This document shows positions 1 through 30,494 of a stretch of 32,221 nucleotides of DNA, piece by piece; the stretch's first letter is position 1; each line of letters begins with the position of its first letter. The DNA is from an uncultured Pseudomonadota bacterium (GTDB lineage: Bacteria > Pseudomonadota > Gammaproteobacteria > Methylococcales > Methylomonadaceae): NCBI GenBank assembly GCA_903847275.1, contig CAINDC010000243.1, positions 1-32,221 of the forward strand, given 5' to 3'. The position numbers were made by a program, and so were the translations under genes. Below the pieces are notes generated by a model. That model made no database searches and had not been told where the DNA came from. It worked only from the letters and a program-made list of their open reading frames with translations.

Positions 1-390
1 AAAGAAGAAAATTTAGAACCGCGTAAAATTATTGGCTCTTGGGCGGGGGCGTTAGGTTTAGGTCAGTTTATGCCAAAAAGTTTTCGCAAATTAGCGGTTG
101 ATTTTAATGGCGATGGTAAACGCGATTTGTGGAATTCTGAAGATGCGATTGGCAGTGTCGCGCATTATTTTAGTAATTCGGGTTGGAAATTTAATCAACT
201 TGTTGCTACGCCAATAAATGGAGATATTGATACCGAATACATCATTTTAGGCACAGATAATGGCAGTCAATTTTGGGCAGTCGGTGATAATTTCAAAACC
301 ATAAAAAAATATAACAGTAGCAACAAATACGCTATGGCGGTTCATCAACTTGGGCAAGCGATAAAACAACGTTATTTAATGATGAAATAA
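1..390 (+). CDS. mltB: Lytic murein transglycosylase B, C-terminal part (5' end outside window)
   Basis: The reading frame is open from base 1, so the gene enters from the left edge and only about 129 C-terminal residues are present. Visible family motifs are GSWAGALGLGQFMPKSF, then AVDFNGDGKRDLWN and DAIGSVAHYF, which are the hallmark of the SLT/MltB fold. MltB-type enzymes are outer-membrane or periplasmic lytic transglycosylases that cleave the MurNAc-GlcNAc bond of peptidoglycan to give 1,6-anhydro-muropeptides. The catalytic Glu and any lipoprotein signal would lie upstream of the window. The gene stops at TAA 388-390, and 226 bp without a gene separates it from the next one, so it is probably not part of the following locus. 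Identification is firm; the subtype (MltB against a close paralogue) is less certain. Confidence 0.9.
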   Translation, partial: KEENLEPRKIIGSWAGALGLGQFMPKSFRKLAVDFNGDGKRDLWNSEDAIGSVAHYFSNSGWKFNQLVATPINGDIDTEYIILGTDNGSQFWAVGDNFKTIKKYNSSNKYAMAVHQLGQAIKQRYLMMK

Positions 391-423
391 AACTGCGGTA
401 AATCCCACGCTTTCAATTTTTAC

Positions 424-439
424 TGTGTCATATCACACA
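424..439. promoter_or_regulatory. Perfect palindrome TGTGT-N6-ACACA, possible operator or upstream activator site
   Basis: The arms TGTGT (424-428) and ACACA (435-439) are exact inverted repeats around six bases, the geometry of a CRP/FNR-superfamily site. It lies about 100 bp upstream of the possible sigma54 promoter at 525-541, a usual distance for an enhancer-type site, and about 180 bp before the first gene of the exported-protein locus. Five-base arms can occur by chance in AT-rich spacer, so this is a candidate only. Confidence 0.3.
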
Positions 440-524
440 CTTTTCATAATTATACAGTTCATAAATAACAGCCAATTTTTTATTTAATCTAATAATTTCA
501 ATGTATTAATATTTAAAGTATAGA

Positions 525-541
525 TTGGCGTGCATCCTGCA
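525..541 (+). promoter_or_regulatory. Possible sigma54 (-24/-12) promoter for the exported-protein locus
   Basis: TTGGCGTG-CATC-CTGCA carries the GG (527-528) and GC (539-540) dinucleotides separated by exactly ten bases, as the sigma54 consensus TTGGCACG-N4-TTGCA requires. Three of the flanking consensus bases differ. Transcription would begin near 552 and give a leader of roughly 65 nt before the ATG at 617. No good sigma70 -35/-10 pair stands out in this 226-bp spacer. Confidence 0.4.
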
Positions 542-616
542 AACTAGCGATAACGATTTAAGTTTTCAAGATTTAAATTTGTTACTCCACTAAATTAAAA
601 TTATTCAGGATAAAAA

Positions 617-1585
617 ATGAACAATGTACTTAAAACTTTAACTTCATTAGCTTTATTGGCTGGAACAGCACAACTCGCTCATGCTCACGCTGGCTTTAAG
701 GATCAAATAACCGAAGGAACGGTGAAAACTTGGAATGCTGTTGCAATTACTCACGGCTGTAACACCAATGCAGGCGGTGAGGCAAATGGTCAGCCACATA
801 AAGACGTAATTGCGATTAGTGCAATTTTCCCAAATTCACCAAATATGAATGATGTGGTCATTCGTGGCAGTAAAGGTAAACCAGCAGTTGCAGAAGTGAA
901 AGATGCGGCTGGAAATGTAACAACTCAAGCGGTTGCTGGTTTCATTTCTGGTGAAGAAACAATTATTCCAAACTTGGTAAATGACATTGTTGGTTCAACA
1001 GACACTACGCCATTGAAAGCCGCATTATCTTTGGTTACTTCTGGTGGGACATTGTTTGCAAACACAATTCCTGTTGCTGACGGCAAAGGAAACGTGCGCG
1101 GTTGGCAAGGTTGGAGTGGTACATCGCCGTATAGTAGCCCTGCATTATTAGAAAGTGCAAAAAATGCACTCGGCGCAGATATTAGTACAACGGGTTTATC
1201 ACCTTTTGGTATTAACGCTTTCGCATTTCAACCAACATCTTGTGCGAAAACTTTGAAAATTCGCGTTGCTGTGGCGAATTGGTGTGAGAAAGGAACTAAA
1301 TCTTACAATAGCCCAAGTCGTGTCGATTTATGGATTGGTCACACAACGCCAAAATTCAACGATCAAGTTGTCATGCCAAGCGCAGATCCAAAATCAATTT
1401 TCTGGTCAACGTTAACGGTAAATCGTGATTTAGTGAAAAATCCTGTTACGAAAGCCTGTGATCAACCGACTGATTACGACACGGTTTATATCGAACCAAG
1501 TGACGCAGACATTGATACATATATGCCAATTTCAGCAGCAAAATATCCAGTGGGCGCAGGTGCTTTCTACTGGCCAACTAAATAA
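617..1585 (+). CDS. Secreted protein with predicted N-terminal His, weakly YcnI/DUF1775-like; possible metal-binding protein
   Basis: The product is 322 residues with a clear Sec signal peptide; the AXA site LAHA (20-23) puts His24 at the mature N terminus (HAGFKDQ), although cleavage after Ala25 is also possible. The start has a good Shine-Dalgarno (CAGGAT, about six bases from ATG). After the signal comes an ITHGCN segment, followed by GQPHKDVIAISAIFP, which recalls the VPHGC...V.IP pattern of YcnI/DUF1775 copper-binding domains, but the protein is longer and the match is weak. Five Cys lie in the mature chain (in ITHGCN, TSCAK, NWCEK and KACDQ among others) and could form disulfides. It is the first gene of a run that continues through TlpA, DUF4266, DUF3570 and ApbE. 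Envelope copper handling is inference from the N-terminal His and the neighbours, not from a recognised family. Confidence 0.75.
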   Translation: MNNVLKTLTSLALLAGTAQLAHAHAGFKDQITEGTVKTWNAVAITHGCNTNAGGEANGQPHKDVIAISAIFPNSPNMNDVVIRGSKGKPAVAEVKDAAGNVTTQAVAGFISGEETIIPNLVNDIVGSTDTTPLKAALSLVTSGGTLFANTIPVADGKGNVRGWQGWSGTSPYSSPALLESAKNALGADISTTGLSPFGINAFAFQPTSCAKTLKIRVAVANWCEKGTKSYNSPSRVDLWIGHTTPKFNDQVVMPSADPKSIFWSTLTVNRDLVKNPVTKACDQPTDYDTVYIEPSDADIDTYMPISAAKYPVGAGAFYWPTK

Positions 1586-1601
1586 GTATTCCATCTAAAA
1601 A

Positions 1602-1648
1602 TATCGGCACATTTTCATTTGTAAGATACAGAGCAAGATGTGCCGATA
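1602..1648 (+). promoter_or_regulatory. Stem-loop with perfect 11-bp arms between two genes of the locus
   Basis: TATCGGCACAT (1602-1612) pairs perfectly with ATGTGCCGATA (1638-1648) across a 25-base loop. No T-run follows, so it is not a standard intrinsic terminator. It lies between the stop at 1585 and the ATG at 1701, where it could stabilise the upstream transcript end, mark an mRNA processing point, or act as a DNA operator. The spacing separates the large first gene from the smaller ones and may set their expression ratio. Confidence 0.5.
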
Positions 1649-1700
1649 GTTCTAAAATGCGCGATAATACGCACAATCGTTATTTCCCTTGGATTTTCTA

Positions 1701-2537
1701 ATGAAAAAAATAGCTCAAAAAACGTTGTTATCGTTTATTGCTTTAAGTGCAATGGAAAGTGCATTTGCGTTGGATTCAGGCGCAAAAAATTTAACTGCAA
1801 CAGAAGGTGCAACAGATTATTTCAAAATTAATTGTGCAGGTGATACGGATCATTTGAATTTTAAATTGTTTGAAGGTGCGGCAAATTCTGTTGTTGAAAC
1901 GCCAGCCACTCCGTCACAACTTTTTAATGCAACATTAACCAAATTAAAATTAACAACAATCGTTTCAGTAATTGAAGTAGGTACAAACAAAGAAATTACC
2001 TTAAAAGGCGGCAATGGTGCGTACACATTGGCACTTGATACATTTGGGACAAATTTAAGCGTAAAAACAGCGCAAACTTATTCTGTGCAATATCAATGTT
2101 TAAGTGCTACTAAAAAAATCACAGCTGGTTCATCAACGCTAACAAAACAAAGCATTGAATCAGCAAAGAAAACATTAGCAAACGGTAAAACAGCAAAATA
2201 TATTATTAACTGCGCGAAAGATAAAACGAATGGAAATACCGATAGTTTGGTTGTAAAACTCATTAACAAAACAACAGCGGTAGCAAAATCTGCTTCAACA
2301 GCTTCTTCGGCTTTAGCCCCATCTGGTGATTTAACCGCGCAAGTGATTAAAGGTGCAATCGCAAAAAATACCACAGGTGAAGAAGCGATAGATGTTCAAA
2401 ATGGCAGTGGTAAATATGATGTTTTGGTAAATAGTCCGACGAATAAAGCGTTGCCTTATCATTTTGAATATAGCTGCCTAAATACTAAAAATGTTGACGC
2501 GCAAACTGCGCCATTTCAACTTTTACAAGACCAATAA
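1701..2537 (+). CDS. Secreted protein with two copies of an unrecognised Cys-pair domain
   Basis: I chose the ATG at 1701 (278 residues) because it begins a classic signal peptide (MKKIAQKTLLSFIALSAMESAFA, cut before LDSG); an in-frame TTG at 1689 only adds four residues. No strong Shine-Dalgarno is visible. The mature protein contains two related units. The first runs from DYFKINCAGDTDHLNFKL to YSVQYQCLS, the second from KYIINCAKDKTNGNTDSLVV to YHFEYSCLN. Each has one Cys near its start, a Gly-rich turn before a beta strand (GGNGAYTLAL, NGSGKYDVLV) and a second Cys at its end, suggesting a small disulfide-closed beta domain. The second unit also shares QVIKG with the next gene (QVVKG). I do not recognise a family. 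Lys, Thr and Ala are abundant, as in exported proteins. Probably periplasmic or surface-located. Confidence 0.75.
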   Translation: MKKIAQKTLLSFIALSAMESAFALDSGAKNLTATEGATDYFKINCAGDTDHLNFKLFEGAANSVVETPATPSQLFNATLTKLKLTTIVSVIEVGTNKEITLKGGNGAYTLALDTFGTNLSVKTAQTYSVQYQCLSATKKITAGSSTLTKQSIESAKKTLANGKTAKYIINCAKDKTNGNTDSLVVKLINKTTAVAKSASTASSALAPSGDLTAQVIKGAIAKNTTGEEAIDVQNGSGKYDVLVNSPTNKALPYHFEYSCLNTKNVDAQTAPFQLLQDQ

Positions 2538-2552
2538 CACGAGGAAATACAG

Positions 2553-2924
2553 ATGAAACGTTTTATTTTTTTGATGTTAATGGGATTGTCTTTGAATGTT
2601 TTTGCACACGATGACGGTGGTATTTTGGGCGAAAATGCGGATGCAGTTGATTATTTTATGGTGTCTTGCAGTGCTGATTCTGACCGAATGTATTTTAACA
2701 TTTCAACATCAACGACAAAGCCTTTACTGAGCGCACAAGTTGTCAAAGGTACTTTTGCCACGAACATTCCAACGAGTCGCGGAGGTGTTGAAATTTCACA
2801 AGGTGGCGGCAGTTATCGAATTACGGTTAATAAAAATGGTTTTGGTAAAGTGGGTTATTCGTTTGAATATCATTGTGAAAACGGTGGTGAACACACCGAA
2901 ACCGATATTACCCGTCTTCAATAA
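2553..2924 (+). CDS. Small secreted protein with one copy of the same domain, predicted N-terminal His
   Basis: This 123-residue product starts with a signal peptide ending LSLNVFA, which leaves HDDGG as the mature N terminus. GAGGAAA lies upstream of ATG with good spacing. The mature part is one copy of the unit found twice in the preceding protein: DYFMVSCSADSDRMYFNI, then SAQVVKGTFA, a Gly-rich GGGSYRITV strand, and YSFEYHCEN, with two Cys in equivalent places. It therefore looks like a paralogue produced by duplication within the locus. A free N-terminal His next to Asp-Asp could bind a divalent metal (Cu or Ni), but that is inference. It is followed nine bases later by the TlpA-like gene and is probably co-transcribed with it. 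Function unknown. Confidence 0.75.
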   Translation: MKRFIFLMLMGLSLNVFAHDDGGILGENADAVDYFMVSCSADSDRMYFNISTSTTKPLLSAQVVKGTFATNIPTSRGGVEISQGGGSYRITVNKNGFGKVGYSFEYHCENGGEHTETDITRLQ

Positions 2925-2933
2925 TTTCATTTT

Positions 2934-3419
2934 ATGAAAAAAATTTTACTTTTCGCTGCAACGCTGATTTTTTCAAATGTTCATGCCGCTACAATCGGTG
3001 AAAAATCCCCCGATTGCGTACTAACTTCGCTTAATAACACGCCCGTGCATTTTCACGAATACACAGGAAAAGTGCTGTATGTGGATTTTTGGGCATCGTG
3101 GTGTACGTCTTGTATGCAATCGTTCCCGTTTTTAAATCAACTCACGCACGAATTCGGCGAGCAAGGATTGCATATTGTTGGCGTGAATTTAGATGAAAAA
3201 GTCGATGATGCTTTGGCATTTTTGGGACATCACCCGTCACATTTTACGATTGCAAATCACGGCGGTGAACAGTGTGCGAAAAGTTTTGATGTTCAAGCCA
3301 TGCCGACTTCTTATGTAATCGATAAACACGGTGTTATTCGCTATACGCATCAAGGTTTTCGTGCTGGTGAAACGGAAGAATTGAAAATGCAAATTGCCCA
3401 ATTATTGGCTGAAAAATAA
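2934..3419 (+). CDS. TlpA/ResA-like periplasmic thioredoxin
   Basis: The 161-residue product has a signal peptide ending near NVHAA (17-19) and a thioredoxin fold with the redox motif WCTSC (Cys57 and Cys60) in FWASWCTSC, plus the cis-proline loop AMPTSYVID. TlpA/ResA proteins reduce disulfides in exported metal-site proteins (cytochrome c apoproteins, Cu sites). An extra Cys (PDC, Cys28) lies before the active site. Its place between two Cys-containing secreted proteins and a DUF4266/DUF3570 pair suggests it serves the products of this locus; TlpA-DUF4266-DUF3570-ApbE is a gene order I recall from other proteobacteria. No clear Shine-Dalgarno precedes the ATG, which is close behind the previous stop, so translational coupling is likely. 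Confidence 0.88.
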   Translation: MKKILLFAATLIFSNVHAATIGEKSPDCVLTSLNNTPVHFHEYTGKVLYVDFWASWCTSCMQSFPFLNQLTHEFGEQGLHIVGVNLDEKVDDALAFLGHHPSHFTIANHGGEQCAKSFDVQAMPTSYVIDKHGVIRYTHQGFRAGETEELKMQIAQLLAEK

Positions 3420-3423
3420 AACG

Positions 3424-3654
3424 ATGTTTGAAAAAAAATTCTTAGCCCCCTTAAAAATCGGGGCTTTTTTTTGTTTGATATTTTTATCGGCGTGTAGCAG
3501 CGTTTCACCTTGGGAACGCGGCACGCTTGCCAAATCTCACATGAATTTACAGCCATCACCGCTGCAAAGCAGTTTGCGCTCGCACCAATACGGTAGTCGT
3601 GAAGCCGCATCGGGTGGTGGCGAAGCCGCAGGAGGTGGTTGTGGCTGTTACTAA
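3424..3654 (+). CDS. DUF4266 small lipoprotein
   Basis: The product is 76 residues. The lipobox LSAC places the lipidated Cys near residue 24. The mature part has the DUF4266 signature: SPWERGTLAKSHM, then REAASGGGEAAGGGCGCY at the C terminus, with two terminal Cys. The ATG lies four bases after the tlpA-like stop, with no obvious ribosome site of its own. The function of DUF4266 is unknown; it is typically encoded right before a DUF3570 protein, as here. Two unusual elements lie inside the gene: an intrinsic-terminator structure in the signal-peptide codons, and an AGGAGG ribosome site for the next gene in the Gly-rich tail. An outer-membrane lipoprotein working with the DUF3570 barrel is a reasonable inference. 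Confidence 0.88.
   Translation: MFEKKFLAPLKIGAFFCLIFLSACSSVSPWERGTLAKSHMNLQPSPLQSSLRSHQYGSREAASGGGEAAGGGCGCY
3444..3472 (+). terminator. Intrinsic-terminator-like hairpin inside the DUF4266 signal-peptide codons
   Basis: AGCCCC (3444-3449) pairs with GGGGCT (3460-3465) around a ten-base loop and is followed directly by a run of eight T (3465-3472). This is the layout of a Rho-independent terminator, yet it lies about 20-49 bases inside an open reading frame. It may be the old terminator of the tlpA-like gene that the lipoprotein gene grew across, or a working attenuator whose folding depends on ribosomes reading the lipoprotein start. Confidence 0.6.
3630..3635 (+). promoter_or_regulatory. 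AGGAGG ribosome binding site that fixes a GTG start for the DUF3570 gene
   Basis: A consensus AGGAGG lies five bases before GTG 3641. It is embedded in the codons for the Gly-rich end of the DUF4266 lipoprotein, whose stop codon is at 3652-3654. It selects GTG 3641 over the earlier in-frame GTG at 3599 and gives a 14-bp gene overlap, which suggests coupled translation of the two products. Confidence 0.8.
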
Positions 3655-6175
3655 ATCCAAAGCATTACATCTTTTAACCGCCGCCGCACTTGCCTTGCCT
3701 TTAACATCGGTTTTTGCTGGCGACGAAGAAGCCTATTTTCAATACGGACATTATGAAGATGGCGCACGAAATTTATTTACCACCCAAAGTGCGTTCAAAC
3801 CCATTCAAGTTGATAGCTTGCAAAGCGGAACGCGTTTAAAACTGTCTGATCGCGTGCGGTTAGCATTCAATTACACGCAAGATACTTGGAGTGGCGCAAC
3901 GCCGATGACGACCGCACCGCTTGCATTTAATCCAAATCGTGAAAGTAAAACTCGCGCCAAAACCATTAGCGGTGCGTCGCCGTATTTGCAACCCTCTAAT
4001 CTCTATGTCGATAAACAATTTAATCCGCTGCAATTTGACGCAAAAACGAAAAAATACAGCGCAAATAATCAACTTGTTCACACACTTTCTACTGCATCAC
4101 CTGAAACACGAAAACAAGGTGATGTTCGAATTGGTTACGATTGGGACGAAGCGAGTTTGGACGCTGGCGCGGGAACATCGGTTGAGCCAGATTACGAATC
4201 GGTTTTTGGTAATGTTGGTTTGCGGCTCGATTTTAATCAGAAATTGACCAGCTTAAATTTGGGCGCAAGTTACACGGCAAGCGAAACAAATTCGATGCTT
4301 GATCATGATGCGTCGCCGTATATTGAAACCTCGACATTTGGCACTCGCGTTCAAACGCTAAAAAATGGCGTGAAAGTCGTCACAGGTTCAAAAGAAGATT
4401 GGACGGGCAGTTTGGGATTGACGCAAATTTTGAATAAATCGGCGTTAATTGAAGGCAGTGTCAGTTACACCGCTAGCAGCGGTTATATGTCAAATCCGTA
4501 CAAAGTGGTGGAAATTTTATTTGTTGACCCAACTAAAAAAGCGGATTCAGACGGAAAAATTGACGCGAAATTATTGCCATTTTTAGAGCAACGCCCAGAG
4601 CAACGCAATCAATGGACGGAAAATTTACGCTTTGTTCAGCACATTGACGCGCTCGATGCGGCGTTGCATTTGGATTATCGTTTTTATCACGATGATTGGG
4701 GCATTAACGCACACACGATTTCGGGTGATTGGATTCAACCAATTGGTGACGGTTGGTCGCTGACACCACGAGTTCGTTATTATTCGCAAAATTCGGCGAA
4801 TTTTTACGCGCCTTATCTGCTTTCTAAACAAGCTACTAGCACGATTACGTTTGATGACGATGGAAATATCCAACGCACTTCGTATAATCCAAAATTATTC
4901 CCTAAAAATTATTCTAGCGATTACCGTTTATCGGGTTATGGCGCGTTAAGTGGTGGTTTGACGGTCACGAAAAAATTCGCCAAAGGCTTGGAATTACAAG
5001 CAGGTGCAGAGTATTACACGCATGCGGGAAGTTTGAAATTAGGCGGTGGCGGCGAGGGCAATTACGCTGATTTCGATGGTTATTTGGTTAATGCTGCATT
5101 GAATGTTGATTTAGCGGCGTTATCAATTGCAAATTCCTCGCACAGCGAGCATTCAAATCATGCTCACCACCATCACGGCGCAGGCGCACCAGCGGGCGTG
5201 ATGTTTGATCATGTTTTAGCAAAGGCAGGTGATGTAATGATTGGCTATCGTTATATGTATGCAAATCAAGCAGGGCAAATGCAACAAGGTGTAAATCCTG
5301 TGAACGATAAAACACTTCTAAATCAAAGTTGTGATCCTGTTTTAAAACAATGTTTTGTTACGCCACAAGAAATGAGCATGAATATGCACATGCTTGATTT
5401 GATGTACGCGCCGACCGATTGGCTAACGTTGATGTTGATGCCGCAATTTATGGATATGCACATGACGATGCGTGACCTTGCTGGGGCAGCAGATTTAAAT
5501 ATGCTGACACCATTAGGGGCGGCGGTGATTCACTCGCGCCATGAACACACAACGGGCGGCGTAGGCGATACAGGAATGTACGCGCTATTTAATGTACTTA
5601 AATTTTCAAATCAGCAATTGAATGTGAGTTTGGGAATTTCGGCACCAACGGGCGATTCGGCGATTCAATTGCGCGATACGCATCAGCAAGATTTAGGCTT
5701 TATTCATTATGGAATGCAAATTGGTAGTGGAACGTGGGATTTCAAACCCGCCATAACATACACCGCGAACATTGACGATTGGTCATTTGGCGCACAATTG
5801 AACGGTACAAAACGATTAGAAAATCAAAGTAAATCAGGTTTTGCGTTAGGCGATATTTTTCAAGCAACTGGCTGGGGAAGTTACAGTTGGACGAATTGGC
5901 TAGCAACCTCATTGCGCGGTGTTTATACCTTACAAGGCGCGTTAAACGGTTCATACAACGGCGTTTATCATCAAATTGGCGCGATGGATTTTACAAATAG
6001 TTACGGTGGACGTTTTGTTGATGTTGGTTTTGGTATCAGTGCTTCGATGCCAAATGGAAGTTTACAAGGCAATCGTTTGAGTTTTGAATGGTTGCAGCCT
6101 GTTCACGATGACGTGAACAGCTACCAATTACCACGCGAAGGCGCCTTATCTGCGACTTGGTCTTATGCGTTTTAA
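3641..6175 (+). CDS. DUF3570 outer-membrane barrel fused to a second, MetA-like barrel, His/Met-rich
   Basis: From GTG 3641 the product is 844 residues with a signal peptide (about 26 residues, ending SVFA). Residues about 27-490 are DUF3570-like: alternating beta strands, the early LQSGTRLKLSDRVRLAFNY segment, YDWDEASLD, and long aromatic strands. A linker at 501-512 reads HSEHSNHAHHHH. Residues about 520-844 form a second barrel like the Phenol_MetA_deg/transporter family, with GVGDTGMYALF, APTGDS and a C-terminal Phe (WSYAF). This half is Met-rich: MSMNMHM from 578 and MDMHMTM at 604-610, patterns usual in copper-binding proteins. DUF3570 proteins are normally shorter single barrels, so the fusion is notable. 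It overlaps the lipoprotein gene upstream and the apbE-like gene downstream (11 bp). Outer-membrane location is well supported by composition; substrate or metal is inference. Confidence 0.85.
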   Translation: MAVTKSKALHLLTAAALALPLTSVFAGDEEAYFQYGHYEDGARNLFTTQSAFKPIQVDSLQSGTRLKLSDRVRLAFNYTQDTWSGATPMTTAPLAFNPNRESKTRAKTISGASPYLQPSNLYVDKQFNPLQFDAKTKKYSANNQLVHTLSTASPETRKQGDVRIGYDWDEASLDAGAGTSVEPDYESVFGNVGLRLDFNQKLTSLNLGASYTASETNSMLDHDASPYIETSTFGTRVQTLKNGVKVVTGSKEDWTGSLGLTQILNKSALIEGSVSYTASSGYMSNPYKVVEILFVDPTKKADSDGKIDAKLLPFLEQRPEQRNQWTENLRFVQHIDALDAALHLDYRFYHDDWGINAHTISGDWIQPIGDGWSLTPRVRYYSQNSANFYAPYLLSKQATSTITFDDDGNIQRTSYNPKLFPKNYSSDYRLSGYGALSGGLTVTKKFAKGLELQAGAEYYTHAGSLKLGGGGEGNYADFDGYLVNAALNVDLAALSIANSSHSEHSNHAHHHHGAGAPAGVMFDHVLAKAGDVMIGYRYMYANQAGQMQQGVNPVNDKTLLNQSCDPVLKQCFVTPQEMSMNMHMLDLMYAPTDWLTLMLMPQFMDMHMTMRDLAGAADLNMLTPLGAAVIHSRHEHTTGGVGDTGMYALFNVLKFSNQQLNVSLGISAPTGDSAIQLRDTHQQDLGFIHYGMQIGSGTWDFKPAITYTANIDDWSFGAQLNGTKRLENQSKSGFALGDIFQATGWGSYSWTNWLATSLRGVYTLQGALNGSYNGVYHQIGAMDFTNSYGGRFVDVGFGISASMPNGSLQGNRLSFEWLQPVHDDVNSYQLPREGALSATWSYAF

Positions 6176-7031
6176 ACATTTCACTTTCTCAGCAATGGGA
6201 AGTCCGTGCGAATTACAAATTTATGCTGAAAATGAATCCATTGCTCAAAAAATCGCACAACAAATTATTGCCGATGTTTATCGTTTAGAACGTAAATACT
6301 CGCGTTATCGAGCAGATAGTTTTTTATCGGAAATTAACGAAGTAGCTGCGTCAGGCGGTTCGATTACAGTTGATGAAGAAACGGCTGGTTTATTAAATTA
6401 CGCTCAAACCTGTTACGAATTAAGCGATGGTTTGTTTGATATTACGTCGGGAATTTTGCGGCAAGCGTGGCGATTCGACTCCCCTGCCCTGCCCAACGAA
6501 AAAATAATTCAATCATTATTAGCAAAAATTGGCTGGCAAAAACTTCACTGGGAAAATTCAACCCTTACTTTTTCGCAGGCTGAAATGGAAATCGATTTTG
6601 GCGGTATCGTTAAAGAATATGCGGCGGATAGAGCGGCGACCTTGTGTTTGAATGCGGGGATTTTGCACGGAATCGTAAATTTAGGCGGTGACATAAAAAT
6701 TATTGGCGCACACCCTGACGGTAAACCGTGGCGCGTTGGCATTCAACATCCGCGTGATAAAACTAAAGTGTGGAAAACACTAAAATTAAAAACAGGAGCG
6801 TTAGCGAGTAGTGGCGATTATGAACGCTGCATGGTGATTGATGGCGTACGTTATGGGCATATTCTAAATCCGAAAACAGGTTATCCTGTGCGACATTTAG
6901 CGGCAGTTAGCGTGATAGCGGATTTATGCGTAGTAGCGGGAAGTGCCGCAACCATTGCAATGCTCAAAGAAAAAGAGGGTGAAAAATGGTTGAAGTCGCT
7001 TGGTTTGAAAAATTACACGTTTAAAAATTAA
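6165..7031 (+). CDS. ApbE-family FAD:protein FMN transferase without signal peptide
   Basis: ApbE enzymes attach FMN covalently to Thr/Ser of target proteins using FAD and Mg2+. The 288-residue product has MGSPCEL at the start (residues 11-17), IDFGGIVKEYAAD (143-155), NLGGD (172-176), GALASSGDYER, and GHILNPKTGYP around His232, all family landmarks. In the KEY stretch most relatives have K-G-x, so this looks like a divergent subgroup. Near the C terminus DLCVVAGSAATIAM replaces the usual DALSTA-type Mg site. Unlike most ApbE proteins it lacks a signal peptide or lipobox and should be cytoplasmic, although the genes before it encode exported proteins. Its ATG lies inside the 3' end of the barrel gene. 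No canonical D-x-x-[ST]-G-A-[ST] flavinylation motif is evident in the neighbouring products, so the target is unknown. Confidence 0.88.
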   Translation: MRFKHFTFSAMGSPCELQIYAENESIAQKIAQQIIADVYRLERKYSRYRADSFLSEINEVAASGGSITVDEETAGLLNYAQTCYELSDGLFDITSGILRQAWRFDSPALPNEKIIQSLLAKIGWQKLHWENSTLTFSQAEMEIDFGGIVKEYAADRAATLCLNAGILHGIVNLGGDIKIIGAHPDGKPWRVGIQHPRDKTKVWKTLKLKTGALASSGDYERCMVIDGVRYGHILNPKTGYPVRHLAAVSVIADLCVVAGSAATIAMLKEKEGEKWLKSLGLKNYTFKN

Positions 7032-7971
7032 CCACCACTTCTCCGCCTTGATTTCTAGCACTCACGATTTTGAATTGTAGCGGTATTTCGACAAAAGCAG
7101 CACGAGCGGATTCAACTAAACCTTCGGCAATTTCTTCACCTTCAATCAAACAAAAACCTGTCGGTCCCCACGACGTTTGACCAATCGCAACTGCCCCACA
7201 TTTTGCTAAAAATTGCATGGCTTTTTCTACATCGAGGCTTGTAAACACGCCGCCCTGTGCGGGTGAAAAATGTTCACCAACAGTCCGTTGTAATTCTGTA
7301 ATCACTTCACCAAAACGCGCTAAATCATTTTCTGCAACCGCTGGCAAAGCCTGCATCAATAATAAATAACTCAATCGTTCTGCTTCCAAGCGTGGAAATG
7401 GTGGTAAATTTTTAAACGCATGGATTTCTTGTTGACCATGTAATCCTTGTCCGCGTTGGTCGAAAACTAAAATGAATCGCCACGTTTCTGGAATATCAAA
7501 ATGTGCCAACATTGGTGGCGTAATCGTATTTTCACCACGTCCACCATCAACAACAAAACCACCCTGTTCAAAAATACCAATGCCAATACCAGAACGTAAA
7601 CCACGATCCATCGTGGCGGCAATATCTCGCACACTCAAACCCAAATTGTAAAACGCATTTAAACCAGCACCAACAGCCAAAGCCATTTGTGTGCCTGAAC
7701 CCAAGCCAATGTGTTCGGGAATTGCAGAGATAATTTCAATTTGAACATTTGTGGAAACGTTAAAGGTTTCACAAAAAGCGATTAAACATTTTTCGGCTCG
7801 TTTATTAGTGACAATTTTTTCTTTCGCAGGAGTAATGACTAATTCTGTCACAGGTTCATCTAATGCCACACCGATGCTGCCAAAATGTCGTCCTAACGCG
7901 CCACTCAAATCTAAAAAACCCATGTGTAAACGTGCAGGTGCGATAACAGAAACAGAAGAAAATGAAGTCAT
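7021..7971 (-). CDS. Beta-ribofuranosylaminobenzene 5'-phosphate (beta-RFAP) synthase
   Basis: This 316-residue enzyme belongs to the GHMP-kinase-like family of beta-RFAP synthases, which condense p-hydroxybenzoate or p-aminobenzoate with PRPP at the first committed step of methanopterin synthesis. Visible features are APARLHMGFLDLSG at the N terminus, IGLGSGTQMAL (88-98) as the GHMP loop, RSGIGIGIFEQGGFVVDGG, QRGQGLHG and IGQTSWGPTGFCL. In bacteria this gene marks organisms that oxidise formaldehyde via H4MPT, chiefly methylotrophs, and it matches the cyclohydrolase at the other end of the window. It converges on the apbE-like gene with an 11-bp tail-to-tail overlap, so no terminator separates them. 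The start was taken at MTSFSSVSVIAPARLH; no strong ribosome site is visible. Confidence 0.92.
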   Translation of the reverse strand: MTSFSSVSVIAPARLHMGFLDLSGALGRHFGSIGVALDEPVTELVITPAKEKIVTNKRAEKCLIAFCETFNVSTNVQIEIISAIPEHIGLGSGTQMALAVGAGLNAFYNLGLSVRDIAATMDRGLRSGIGIGIFEQGGFVVDGGRGENTITPPMLAHFDIPETWRFILVFDQRGQGLHGQQEIHAFKNLPPFPRLEAERLSYLLLMQALPAVAENDLARFGEVITELQRTVGEHFSPAQGGVFTSLDVEKAMQFLAKCGAVAIGQTSWGPTGFCLIEGEEIAEGLVESARAAFVEIPLQFKIVSARNQGGEVVVNF

Positions 7972-8090
7972 GTGTAACCAGTAAAAAATAAAGAATGATG
8001 CAAAGATAGCAGATTCTGGAATTATTGAAAGTGCGTTGTTAACACGTCCATAAACCCAGATGACAGTGCGTTAATGTGCAATTTTTATTG

Positions 8091-8099
8091 TGCTACAAT
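8091..8099 (+). promoter_or_regulatory. Extended -10 promoter element (TGCTACAAT)
   Basis: TGC-TACAAT has a TGn extension followed by a -10 box with one mismatch to TATAAT, 35 bases before the ATG at 8135. The -35 region (TTAATG at 8071-8076, spacing 17) is poor, as is common for extended -10 promoters. It is the most convincing sigma70-type element in the divergent spacer 7972-8134. Confidence 0.5.
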
Positions 8100-8134
8100 T
8101 CGCGCCTCACTTAACCTTCTTAAAATTGTGACCT

Positions 8135-8584
8135 ATGAACAAAATGAGCAAGAAAAAAATTTTTGCATTATTTGCAGCGGTAATTGCTTTAGTAGTTTTT
8201 CAACGTGAATTATTGATTCCAATGGCAAAAGAAGCTGCAAAGTCTGATTTATTTCTAATCGAAAGCAAAGATCAAGGCAGCATGATTACGCAATCGAATG
8301 AAATGACACAGTTTGCGTTCCAACATTGCAACACACATCTCAAAGCCGATTTAGACCCAAAAACGACAGTGGTATTGCCAGAAAAACCGTTGAATGCGTG
8401 GAGTTTAGGAAATTATGAATATGTTGTTAGTGCAGAAGCAGACGTTACGCACGAAAATTCAGCCCCTAAAAAACATAAATATGTGTGTCGAATTAGTTAT
8501 AAAAATGGCGATGATATAAGTGGCGGTAAAGATTTTGAGAATTGGTCATTAGACGGATTGTCTAAAGTGGATGACGAAAAATAA
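8135..8584 (+). CDS. Hypothetical membrane-anchored protein
   Basis: The 149-residue product is not recognised. It begins with a positive N terminus (MNKMSKKK) and one hydrophobic helix (about residues 9-23, IFALFAAVIALVVF). It lacks a good signal-peptidase site, so it is probably a single-pass inner-membrane anchor with the rest in the periplasm. The soluble part contains two Cys (QHCNTH and YVCRISY) that may pair, a strand-rich stretch NYEYVVSAEADVTHEN, and a charged tail. It stands alone, with a promoter-like element upstream and a hairpin just downstream, so it is probably transcribed as a single gene. Alternating hydrophobic strands suggest a small beta domain. No function is proposed. 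Confidence 0.7.
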   Translation: MNKMSKKKIFALFAAVIALVVFQRELLIPMAKEAAKSDLFLIESKDQGSMITQSNEMTQFAFQHCNTHLKADLDPKTTVVLPEKPLNAWSLGNYEYVVSAEADVTHENSAPKKHKYVCRISYKNGDDISGGKDFENWSLDGLSKVDDEK

Positions 8585-8591
8585 TCATGAC

Positions 8592-8614
8592 GAGACGCAG
8601 AAATTTTGCGTCTC
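8592..8614. terminator. Perfect 8-bp hairpin between convergent genes, probable terminator
   Basis: GAGACGCA (8592-8599) pairs perfectly with TGCGTCTC (8607-8614) across a seven-base loop. It lies between the stop of the anchored protein (8584) and the stop of epmA on the other strand (8616). Neither side has a long T-run, so termination may be weak or Rho-assisted, or the hairpin may protect 3' ends in both directions. Confidence 0.5.
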
Positions 8615-8615
8615 A

Positions 8616-9584
8616 TTAAGCGTGTGAAATATCAAAACTTAACACATCAGCAATCGTTTGCGAATTCGCCAATACCATCAAAATTCTATCCAAACCCAAC
8701 GCAATGCCTGAGCAATCGGGCAAACCGTTTTTCAGCGCAGCGAGTAATCGTTTATCTTTTTCTACTTTTGGTAAATTATTTTGCTTTCTGATTTCAATTT
8801 CAGCATCAAAACGCCTATTTTGTTCTTCTGCATCGCTAAGTTCGTGAAAACCGTTGCCCAATTCAATGCCGTTGATAAAGACTTCTACACGCTCTGTGAT
8901 TAACGGATTTTTAGCATTTAAACGCGCTAATGATGATTGACACGCGGGATAACCATAAACCAAACACAGCTCATTTTTACCCAAATGTGGTTGAACACAA
9001 AAACTAAACAAAAAATCTAACCACAGCGCGTGATTTTCGCCACAAATCGAAATTGCATCGGACAAATGTTCGCGTTTAGCAAAAGCAGAATAATCCTCAA
9101 ACGAAAAAACGAGTGCGTTCAAACCCGTAAATTGCTCGAAAACGTTTTGATAACTGATGCGTTGTGGCTTTTTTAACCTGCCATCAAATAAAATATCGAA
9201 CAACAATTCCACTTCATTCATCAATTCTGCCAAATCAAAATCAACCCGATACCATTCTAAAATCGTAAATTCTGGATTGTGAAAACGTCCTGCTTCACCA
9301 TTCCGAAAGGCTTTGCAGATTTGAAAAATTGAACCACTACCTGCTGCCAATAATCGTTTCATGGCAAATTCAGGCGACGTTTGTAAAAATAATAGTTGTG
9401 AATGTGGAGGCGTTTCGTAATTTGACGTAAAAAAAGCGAGTTGTGGATCCGTGCCACTCGCGTGACTAAGTAACGGTGTTTCTACTTCCAACACATTTCG
9501 TTCCACAAAAAAAACGCGAATACGTTGTAGCATTCGCGCTCTTAATTGCAATAATTCAATCGAACAACTTTCTGAATTTTGCAC
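8616..9584 (-). CDS. epmA: EF-P--(R)-beta-lysine ligase (EpmA/PoxA/GenX)
   Basis: EpmA is a truncated class II lysyl-tRNA-synthetase homologue that ligates (R)-beta-lysine to the conserved Lys of elongation factor P. Landmarks are FFVERNVLEVETPLLSHASG (motif 1 region), FRNGEAGRFHNPEFTILEWY (motif 2), GIELGNGFHELSD, and GIALGLDRILM (motif 3). There is no tRNA anticodon-binding domain, which separates it from LysS. I place the start at GTG 9584, seven bases after the efp stop, giving 322 residues, near the usual length of about 325. A longer frame would overlap efp by more than 40 bases. The gene follows efp on the same strand, pairing enzyme and substrate. The partner lysine aminomutase EpmB is not in this window. 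Confidence 0.93.
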   Translation of the reverse strand: MQNSESCSIELLQLRARMLQRIRVFFVERNVLEVETPLLSHASGTDPQLAFFTSNYETPPHSQLLFLQTSPEFAMKRLLAAGSGSIFQICKAFRNGEAGRFHNPEFTILEWYRVDFDLAELMNEVELLFDILFDGRLKKPQRISYQNVFEQFTGLNALVFSFEDYSAFAKREHLSDAISICGENHALWLDFLFSFCVQPHLGKNELCLVYGYPACQSSLARLNAKNPLITERVEVFINGIELGNGFHELSDAEEQNRRFDAEIEIRKQNNLPKVEKDKRLLAALKNGLPDCSGIALGLDRILMVLANSQTIADVLSFDISHA

Positions 9585-28481: not shown

Positions 28482-30494
28482 CTATCCACCAAACGATAAA
28501 TCCAACAACGCATTATCTAACTGACCTGCACGAAAACTTTTACCCGATTCAACGGCTGTCACAATAACACTTGCGGGACTAAATAACATTGCGTCGATTT
28601 TGAAAAAGTCGTAATCGCACGCTTTGAAAATTTTCGCAAACGGTTTTCCATAATCTTTTGATGTTGAACTTGGTAATTCTTTTGCCAATTTCTCAGCCGC
28701 TTCATCACTACCTTTTACAAATAAATGCACTTGACCTGCAAATAAAATTGCATCATTAGTGCGCCCCATCGCTTTGACAAAATTCGGATGCGGCGGACAA
28801 ATTGGCGCAGAACCGCTGCCATCAATAATGTTTTCTAATGGAAAATGTAACGCGTGTGCTTTGTGCATTGCAACTTCTAAAACGCGTGCCACAACTTGAA
28901 CACCACCCGCTAAACTGCTTGTAGGCGTGACGATAATCGTTAATTTGGCGGGTGAAATACCACACGATGATGCGACTTTTTCAATAATTGCTAATGGTGG
29001 AATCGCATCATTTTCAATCACCAATGTCGCCGCATCTGCTTCATCGTGATACGCCAACTCTTGATATAGTTCTTCGACAGGAATCGTTTGCCCTTCTTTT
29101 TGTTTAGTCGCCATTGCACGCGCAGGACCTGAGCCGAGTGCGTAGTATTTTTCATGCGACAAGCTCCAGCCTGCATATTGACTGCCTAAACAACCTAAAA
29201 CGGGATTGCCAGTGTGAACATTTACCGATAAAGGCCAATTTGTGGTGTATGAACTATGTGAAATCGATACCGTTCCCATGCCGCCTAAACAAATTTCAGC
29301 AATAATTCGTCCCGCTTCCAATCCACCCGTGTGTTTAATTCCCGCATCAATTACGGTGCAACCATTTTCCAAAACCTCAACACCGACACGCAATTTCGCT
29401 GCATTTTCGATAAGCTCTTGGACTAAAGGTTGAGTAAGTTTATTCACACTTGCTTGTTTCATCGTTAAATTTCCTTCTAATTTTTGAATGTTAATTTTTA
29501 GCTTTTTTAATACTAAGTTAGAGGTTTTCCCAATCGCAATCATACTGCAAATAGGTTGTTTTTTGTGAATTATCACGCCTGTAGGCGGTAAATCTTGACA
29601 AGATTCTAACCACACAAAATTTTTTGGAATGACTACTGTTTGGGGAGCGTAAACAATTTGATATGCTGAAAAATCTGTTGTTCGAGAAAATTCCGTTTTT
29701 AGCGTTAAATGTGCTTTAAACAATAATGCGTTATAAAGTTGCATACTTGCAGACGGACGTGGATTGACTTCCAAAACAAAAACTTCATTTTCAGTTTGTA
29801 TAAAATCCAATGAATTTAATCCGCGTAAATTGAAATGCACAACGATGGATTGTAGCCACGAATAAATCTGCGTTTTTTGCAAATCGTTTAAATTACTGTG
29901 ATTTGAAATACCTAAAAATAGAAAATCATCTCGCGTCCATTGTGTATTAAAACCAATAATTGTCGCAATTTCACCATTCGCTAAAAATAAAACTGAACCC
30001 GCTTGCGCTTGCCCATCGTAAAAATGTTGCCAATAAATATCTTTTTTTTGTGAATTGATACCAACGCCGCCTTGACCTCGAAGCGGTTTGGAAAGCCAAT
30101 TTTTTGATTCATTTGGAAAAGAAAAATGTGTTTCAGGATACGGAATTTTTAGTGAATCTAACGCCGCAAAAAATGTCTGTTTATTTTGCACAGATTCAAA
30201 AACAGCAGCAGAATTTCCTGCAACGTTAAAACGCTTTTCTAAAAAATATAGACTCTCAACGCACGTTTCAAAACCGCTACCATAAACTACGCCAGCGATT
30301 TTATAACCATTAAATTCACTAAAAGCAGTCGTTAAATTTGCAGTCGAAAGCGAATCAACACGTACTACTTTTTGAGCATAATGTGAAGTATCAATATCTG
30401 CAAAACAATCAATCACTAATACATCAAATCCTTCACGCTGCGCCGCTTGTGCAAGCATTCGCCCTGATGTAGCGACGATTAACCAGACATTCAT
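28482..30494 (-). CDS. mch: Fusion of an ATP-grasp protein with methenyltetrahydromethanopterin cyclohydrolase (Mch)
   Basis: The single 670-residue frame joins two proteins. Residues 1-344 are an ATP-grasp domain: [31 protein letters not shown] as nucleotide loop, and [14 protein letters not shown] as metal site. ATP-grasp proteins of this sort occur in methylotroph H4MPT gene clusters, possibly in cofactor synthesis. Residues 345-670 are a full-length Mch (326 residues): [53 protein letters not shown] and [15 protein letters not shown]. Mch converts methenyl-H4MPT to formyl-H4MPT in formaldehyde oxidation. In other methylotrophs known to me the two are separate genes. At the join (ATG 29460-29462) an SD-like GAAGGA lies nine bases upstream, so free Mch may also be made. 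The ATG overlaps the corA-like stop (ATGA), which indicates an operon. Confidence 0.9.
29472..29477 (-). promoter_or_regulatory. Internal ribosome binding site at the ATP-grasp/Mch boundary
   Basis: On the minus strand GAAGGA is followed by nine bases and an in-frame ATG (29462-29460) where a stand-alone Mch would begin ([15 protein letters not shown]). It looks like the former mch ribosome site kept inside the fused reading frame. Spacing is at the upper end of the good range. Confidence 0.6.

Follow-up and report, generated by a model that had tools for sequence, protein, structure and literature searches.

A Methylococcales variant of the thioredoxin-DUF4266-DUF3570-ApbE flavin relay, possibly rebuilt for copper at the outer membrane

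Introduction

The window analyzed here is a 32,221-nucleotide stretch of DNA (contig CAINDC010000243.1 of assembly GCA_903847275.1) from an uncultured member of the Methylomonadaceae. Near its beginning lie seven genes, g1 to g7, that encode predicted redox proteins of the cell envelope together with secreted proteins of another kind. The question raised by the locus is whether it represents a redox system of its own and, if so, whether a metal is its substrate. In the original prediction the system was put forward as a candidate undescribed one. This does not hold for its core, which has been published together with experimental flavinylation of a DUF3570 relative (Meheust et al. 2021, PMC8238504). 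According to the accessible sections of that paper, the DUF3570 protein of Chlorobium luteolum is flavinylated by its ApbE and has two [S/T]GA[S/T] motifs. Thioredoxin (there PF13899), DUF4266 and DsbD are named as partners of DUF3570, and the thioredoxin, the CxC lipoprotein and the flavinylated DUF3570 protein are proposed to form a relay, the function of the clusters being called uncertain. A further 316 DUF3570 clusters are without DsbD, so DsbD is not required for cluster membership. In the literature searched, DUF3570 and DUF4266 were each found in this paper only; the accessible part of a 2024 flavinylation paper (PMC11334425) does not mention DUF3570.

Results

Organization of the gene cluster

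Gene calls and Pfam searches confirmed seven genes on the same strand with the products expected (Table 1). The spacing is likewise as claimed, with gaps of 115, 15, 9 and 4 bp, in order, followed by overlaps of 17 and 11 bp. Pfam matches were obtained for g4 (Redoxin, 79 bits, and AhpC-TSA), g5 (DUF4266, 72.8 bits), g6 (DUF3570, 369 bits, aa 12-480) and g7 (ApbE, 261 bits). No Pfam family was found for g1 (none at E ≤ 1) or g3, and the single match of g2 fell far under the cut-off. The g3-type profile matches g2 twice, showing that g2 and g3 are one family and bearing out the prediction of two secreted paralogues. As judged by hydropathy only, g1 to g6 have hydrophobic, export-like N-termini and g7 has none, in agreement with the claim that six of the seven products are exported. 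A lipobox, FLSAC, was recognized by eye in g5. Elsewhere in the window, at 28482-30494, an ATP-grasp domain is fused to an MCH cyclohydrolase domain.

Table 1. Features of the gene cluster at positions 617-7031 of the window
Feature	Position	Strand	Description
g1	617..1585	+	secreted; mature N-terminal His24 (cleavage site judged visually); His46 and Cys48 invariant; YcnI-like fold by prediction
conserved stem-loop, g1/g2 gap	1602..1648	+	probable terminator or attenuator
17 invariant bases 3' of stem-loop	1654..1670	+	invariant in 6/6 sequences; GATAAT inside is a possible -10 element
g2	1701..2537 (ATG at 1701)	+	secreted; two g3-type domains in tandem
g3	2553..2924	+	small, secreted; predicted His-first; two invariant Cys
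g4	2934..3419	+	TlpA/ResA-like thioredoxin, exported
g5	3424..3654	+	DUF4266 lipoprotein, C-terminal CGCY
g6	about 3638..6175 (GTG)	+	fusion of a DUF3570 barrel (aa 25-492) with a second outer-membrane barrel
g6 flavinylation motif SGAT	3890..3901	+	aa 85-88
g6 flavinylation motif SGAS	3968..3979	+	aa 111-114
g6 C-terminal COG4313-type barrel	5195..6172	+	aa 520-845, predicted model
Met ladder, main part	5372..5470	+	strands 2 and 3 of the g6 C-terminal barrel
g7	6165..7031	+	ApbE flavin transferase without evident signal peptide

Relation to the published flavin relay

The cluster shares with those of Meheust et al. a DUF3570 protein with both [S/T]GA[S/T] motifs, a DUF4266 protein with CxC, an adjacent thioredoxin and ApbE. 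It differs from them in that DUF3570 is fused to a Met-lined barrel, g1 and the g3-type genes are added and DsbD is missing from the seven genes by Pfam. Moreover, the thioredoxin of the published clusters is PF13899, whereas g4 matches Redoxin/AhpC-TSA. By analogy with the C. luteolum protein, g6 would be flavinylated by g7. The C-terminus of DUF4266 reads CGC[YN] in all 74 distinct relatives; it is CGCY in 48 of the 53 cases with a fused barrel and a g3-type gene and CGCN in 13 of 13 plain ones. One genome (G096) contained 12 DUF4266 matches.

The genome also contains a second, plain cluster on a different contig (L093, G000:C80), which consists of a thioredoxin, a DUF4266 protein ending in CGCN, a 422-aa DUF3570 protein and a DsbD-type protein. 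Since no ApbE was seen beside it, g7 might serve both clusters. The published DUF3570 analysis focused on exported ApbE. Hydropathy revealed an obvious signal peptide in none of the 46 ApbE proteins of the fetched loci, the window included. Five have values of 1.2-1.7 on the scale applied, two or more of them in over-long reading frames; for nine of the 46 the anchor motif escaped detection and a longer segment was evaluated. The lack of an obvious signal peptide suggests that the flavin may be attached before export.

The description of the locus as an envelope redox module is supported. The possibility was considered that it is a general thiol-flavin electron route of the envelope, serving extracellular electron transfer or the repair of oxidized Met or Cys and without metal transport. 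The relay proposed for the published core would suit such a route, but g1, the His-first proteins and the Met ladder described below would be left unexplained, and it is judged distinctly improbable.

The predicted double barrel of g6

Structure prediction bore out the double barrel of g6 (mean pLDDT 70.1, pTM 0.63). In the model the first barrel resembles porins and BamA. The second barrel matched the COG4313 channel 4rl8 with a Z of 21.7 (254 residues, rmsd 3.2) and FapF with a Z of 21.4. The predicted model thus has the 12-stranded fold of COG4313/PF13557 channels and of FapF (Z about 21), but it is fused to DUF3570 and three of its strands are lined with Met inside. The window's second barrel matches no Pfam family at E ≤ 10, PF13557 included; PF13557 is matched by a relative from Ruegeria with 31% identity. 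Counting strands from a periplasmic N-terminus would place the two flavin motifs where strand 3 ends and within the long loop of residues 86-156, either on the outer side or inside the lumen; this placement is tentative because most of the loop has a pLDDT below 50.

The inward face of each strand was called from hydropathy with Met left out. On this basis all 12 conserved Met of the second barrel (present in at least 80% of 24 sequences) are on the inward face, within the first three strands. The Met frequency of the second barrel is 16.1% inward and 1.3% outward, compared with 0.3% and 1.2% in the first barrel.

The match to FapF, about as good as that to the COG4313 channel, could mean that the second barrel exports polypeptides, with g1-g3 as the cargo and the redox genes folding or protecting it. 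Most such barrels in the fetched loci, which were selected, are accompanied by one to three g3-type genes, which counts in its favor. However, a Met-lined wall would be surprising in a polypeptide pore, and a secretion role is considered very improbable. Second-barrel patterns derived from one protein, which reach close relatives only, gave no match in viral_contigs.

Likeness of g1 to YcnI

The best VIA-align match of the AlphaFold model of g1 (mean pLDDT 76.6, pTM 0.79) was YcnI, with a Z of 9.8 and an rmsd of 2.8 over 127 of 129 residues. The runners-up were 3esm (9.4) and, as the next family, cohesin (6.5). Unrelated proteins often give a best Z of 7 to 8; the value for g1 lies above this range, but not far. 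A Foldseek search with the same model returned nothing at E ≤ 0.001; alpha-hemolysin was the top match (E 0.019) and YcnI had an E of 0.24 or worse. By sequence, no significant solved relative was found for g1, the g3-type family or g6.

YcnI is a DUF1775 protein of B. subtilis that, in the accessible account of PMC8424229, binds Cu(II) with Glu50 and the N-terminal His as ligands, Trp137 lying above; among proteobacterial relatives without the Glu, most keep the His and the Trp. The first aligned residues of g1 and YcnI are His24 and the N-terminal His27. All 32 g1 relatives compared share His24, His46, Cys48, Cys209, Cys223, Trp239 and Cys281. The spacing from the N-terminal His to HGC is 21-22 in 36 of 51 distinct g1 relatives (from 72 entries, less 10 that did not fit the pattern, several of them fragments, and duplicates) and 22 in all four proteobacterial DUF1775 proteins. 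In a HMMER alignment of one proteobacterial DUF1775 protein the His of HGC adjoins the Glu50 position, where g1 has no Glu.

The DUF1775 family of Pfam (PF07987) does not match g1 at E ≤ 1, and it was found in none of 35 chosen genomes, 26 of them from the window's order. Comparison of the mature profiles of g1 and DUF1775 scored 27.5 with a probability of 16%; 40 column shuffles reached at most 19.3. Thus, g1 resembles YcnI/DUF1775 in its predicted fold, its N-terminal His and an HGC at nearly the proteobacterial spacing, but differs in its length of about 320 aa with large insertions, the missing Pfam match and the lack of conservation at the Glu50 position. As the sequence tie is weak, g1 is termed a protein of YcnI-like fold and not a member of DUF1775. 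The modeled fold makes it a probable copper-binding protein. A crude pattern classed 64 of 91 distinct g3-type proteins as His-first.

A conserved stem-loop between g1 and g2

Folding of the whole g1/g2 gap gave a z of -4.0 relative to 200 shuffles. Across six related sequences, the 13 pairs of the stem-loop give 78 cells, every one of which is a standard pair; changes on both sides are seen in 8 of the 13, and pairing falls to 30-49% when the partners are slid. Five measures were compared with 500 shuffles, the structure being taken from the same six sequences: none of the shuffles reached four of the measures, and 232 reached the fifth (further pair types). In seven loci that are more distant, the strongest stem following g1 is a different one. 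Neither a promoter nor a terminator was listed at the gap by consensus scans, and an Rfam search of positions 1-9000 gave no match. The stem-loop is probably a terminator or attenuator after g1, which would be followed by a promoter for g2-g7, and g1 is probably a separate transcript. A single operon of seven genes is doubtful for g1 because the conserved stem-loop lies between g1 and g2.

Conservation and linkage

The original prediction was staked in part on conservation of the neighborhood in other genomes, and this was found. Among 151 genomes of Methylococcales, DUF4266 is present in 94, the g3-type family in 54 and g1 in 40 or 69, when searched with a single sequence or a profile, respectively. 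A g3-type match lies within 10 kb of a DUF4266 match in all 54 genomes that have one and at 54 of 58 places. The corresponding values for g1 are 51 of 69 genomes and 58 of 95 places, g1 being apart from the core in the other 37. These counts include 58 of 75 g3-type rows and 95 of 108 g1 rows, the omitted ones being further copies, or second fragments, from genomes counted before. The g3-type genes are therefore tightly bound to the core, and g1 less tightly. An uptake route that includes g1, as had been proposed, gains no support from the places where g1 stands apart or from its probable separate transcription.

The gene order g1, one to three g2/g3-type genes, thioredoxin, DUF4266, DUF3570-barrel and ApbE recurs in many loci, with exceptions. 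The fetched loci were selected, 40 mostly with g1 or g3 matches and 20 mostly without, and proportions among them are not frequencies. The whole cluster is present in Methylovulum miyakonense and M. psychrotolerans. A 284-aa HEAT-repeat protein (e.g. L104:8166-9017) occurs in 23 fetched loci, usually directly upstream of the g3-type genes. In 19 loci there is a membrane protein of 517 aa that weakly matches spermine synthase (e.g. L114:2932-4482), usually after ApbE. Neither was seen in the window's cluster. A scan of 104 of the 232 neighbors within 4 kb, from which most of these HEAT-repeat and 517-aa proteins had been excluded beforehand, found mostly housekeeping proteins such as SecA, GlnE and MutL among the 25 commonest of 143 families. 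A TonB receptor upstream of g1 was considered and rejected; the upstream genes of 918-991 aa that were scanned encode SecA and GlnE, which indicates that the module sits in varied surroundings. At L110:7365-8483 a single gene, apparently a fusion, matches both the g3-type and the g1 profiles.

In a tree of 66 DUF3570 domains (quick, unrooted, no bootstrap), one branch (support 99) separates 13 single from 53 fused proteins, so that the fusion need have been gained or lost no more than once. The fused proteins form two groups, one of 46 with g3-type genes plus one without (support 99) and the other of six without g3-type genes (support 100). The linkage counts and the tree uphold the view that a known core was extended by g1-g3 and by the g6 fusion. 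The cluster is a lineage-specific, conserved variant of the published flavin relay, and this variant was not found in the literature searched, which left most subscription journals outside. In L137 (4103-6355) and other fused loci without g3-type genes, a CxxCH protein of about 750 aa near DUF4266 looks by eye like a diheme peroxidase.

Beyond the order, two genomes were found to carry the cluster, G471 and G323, each with an AMO/PmoA gene; in G323 the set is partly repeated and rearranged. Their DUF3570 domains fall inside the fused group at two different places, suggesting transfer of the module between such bacteria.

Distribution in relation to methane oxidation

The window's own genome has an AMO/PmoA-family gene (429 bits). 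Of 369 genomes from the class, 7 yielded a g1 match, 11 a match to AMO/PmoA and 6 both (hypergeometric 9e-10, shared ancestry ignored). These six are the genomes with AMO matches above 390 bits, and the five with matches of 263-357 bits are without g1. Strong g1 matches, exceeding 130 bits, are confined to four of the seven genomes (G000, G008, G323, G471), and all four have AMO above 390 bits. The matches in G003 and G178 (28 bits) are weak, and G448 has a g1 match of 44 bits and no AMO match. In a sample of 398 genomes from the phylum, the g3-type family was detected in two, G000 and G471. A pattern scan for g1 in the species-genome collection returned 31 loci; four are called uncultured proteobacterium, and the other 27 carry names that we take to be those of gammaproteobacterial methanotrophs. 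Within the order g1 is not enriched with AMO/PmoA, which by hand count was detected in 55 of 69 genomes with g1 vs. 67 of 82 without.

Plasmid relatives of the second barrel and the choice of metal

Relatives of the second barrel were found in eight plasmid records. Four are from Ruegeria, 90-100% identical to one that shows the Met ladder, and a multicopper oxidase is present in two of the three opened. On one Ruegeria plasmid, genes for a heavy-metal P-type ATPase, cueR and copper resistance protein B are found at a distance of 8-14 kb from the barrel relative. Such surroundings would be expected if the barrel and the secreted proteins served copper homeostasis or detoxification, storing copper, keeping it reduced or expelling it rather than importing it. 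This explanation is held to be unlikely: the seven genes include, by Pfam, no copper ATPase, Cus-type pump or multicopper oxidase, and an E1-E2 ATPase domain was found in 2 of the 104 neighbors scanned elsewhere (among the 25 commonest of 143 families).

A different neighborhood is found on a plasmid of Methylosinus sp. C49, an alphaproteobacterial methanotroph (L214:8576-10792), where a double barrel that has the Met ladder and a His-rich linker adjoins feoB, with a FeoC-like gene and PepSY near and FecR, sigma factor and TonB receptor genes further off. The flavins might accordingly reduce Fe(III) at the outer membrane, Fe(II) then entering the cell, and the accessible text of Meheust et al. 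also reports the ferrous iron transporter VIT1 in 25 DUF3570 clusters (PMC8238504). The inward-facing Met and the YcnI-like fold would suit copper better, however, and no iron transporter was found among the seven genes by Pfam; an iron relay is thus regarded as improbable. Three Methylocystis records also contain barrel relatives, and the Met ladder is missing in the two that were aligned.

Copper is the better guess because of the inward-facing Met and the YcnI-like fold of g1. Of the metal (copper?) uptake or extracellular redox route originally suggested, copper is favored on these grounds; uptake is not, since no metal transporter was found among the seven genes by Pfam and the Methylosinus relative lies by feoB. 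Envelope copper handling in gammaproteobacterial methanotrophs is also the subject of CorA/MopE, described in the accessible part of PMC3912023 as a two-gene surface system with a diheme peroxidase; nothing was found to tie that system to the flavin relay. A word search of the methanotroph copper and surface-protein literature, in its accessible portions, found no ApbE or flavin in the papers probed for these words, and thioredoxin is mostly not mentioned either. MEALZ_0810-0811 are reported, in the part of the source available, to be induced by copper limitation; no link between them and g1-g3 was found.

Discussion

The preferred reading, which we hold to be possible though somewhat short of probable, is that the cluster is a methanotroph variant of the thioredoxin-DUF4266-DUF3570-ApbE flavin relay that was rebuilt for copper at the outer membrane. 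Counted for this tentative relay are the tested DUF3570 relative, the YcnI-like g1, the Met ladder, the copper genes of Ruegeria, the linkage, the clustering on the tree and the AMO/PmoA genes of G471 and G323. Counted against it are the missing transporter and DsbD, the non-significant Foldseek result, the non-conserved Glu50 ligand, the missing DUF1775 match and weak profile score of g1, the feoB neighbor, the Methylocystis barrels without the ladder, the absence of AMO enrichment within the order and G448.

We infer the metal, its direction and the path of the electrons as follows. By homology to the tested relative, g7 would transfer FMN to both motifs of g6, perhaps before Sec export, given that g7 is without an evident export signal. 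Thiol electrons from g4 and the CxC of the lipoprotein g5 would then pass to the flavins of the first barrel, which could convert Cu(II) into Cu(I) or maintain copper in the reduced state. Cu(I) would pass through, or be held by, the Met-lined second barrel. Finally, as the fold of g1 suggests, this protein with its N-terminal His, together with the His-first proteins of g3 type, may bind envelope copper and pass it on, ultimately for pMMO.

A stricter version, somewhat unlikely on the present evidence, is a dedicated outer-membrane copper route of methanotrophs among the Gammaproteobacteria, in which flavins attached covalently to one barrel reduce surface Cu(II), Cu(I) moves to the fused Met-lined channel and the YcnI-like and His-first proteins act at the surface and in the periplasm as chaperones for pMMO. 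If this were true, an electron conduit and a metal channel would be fused in one chain. The methane-oxidizing enzyme needs copper, and the module may be how these bacteria handle it.
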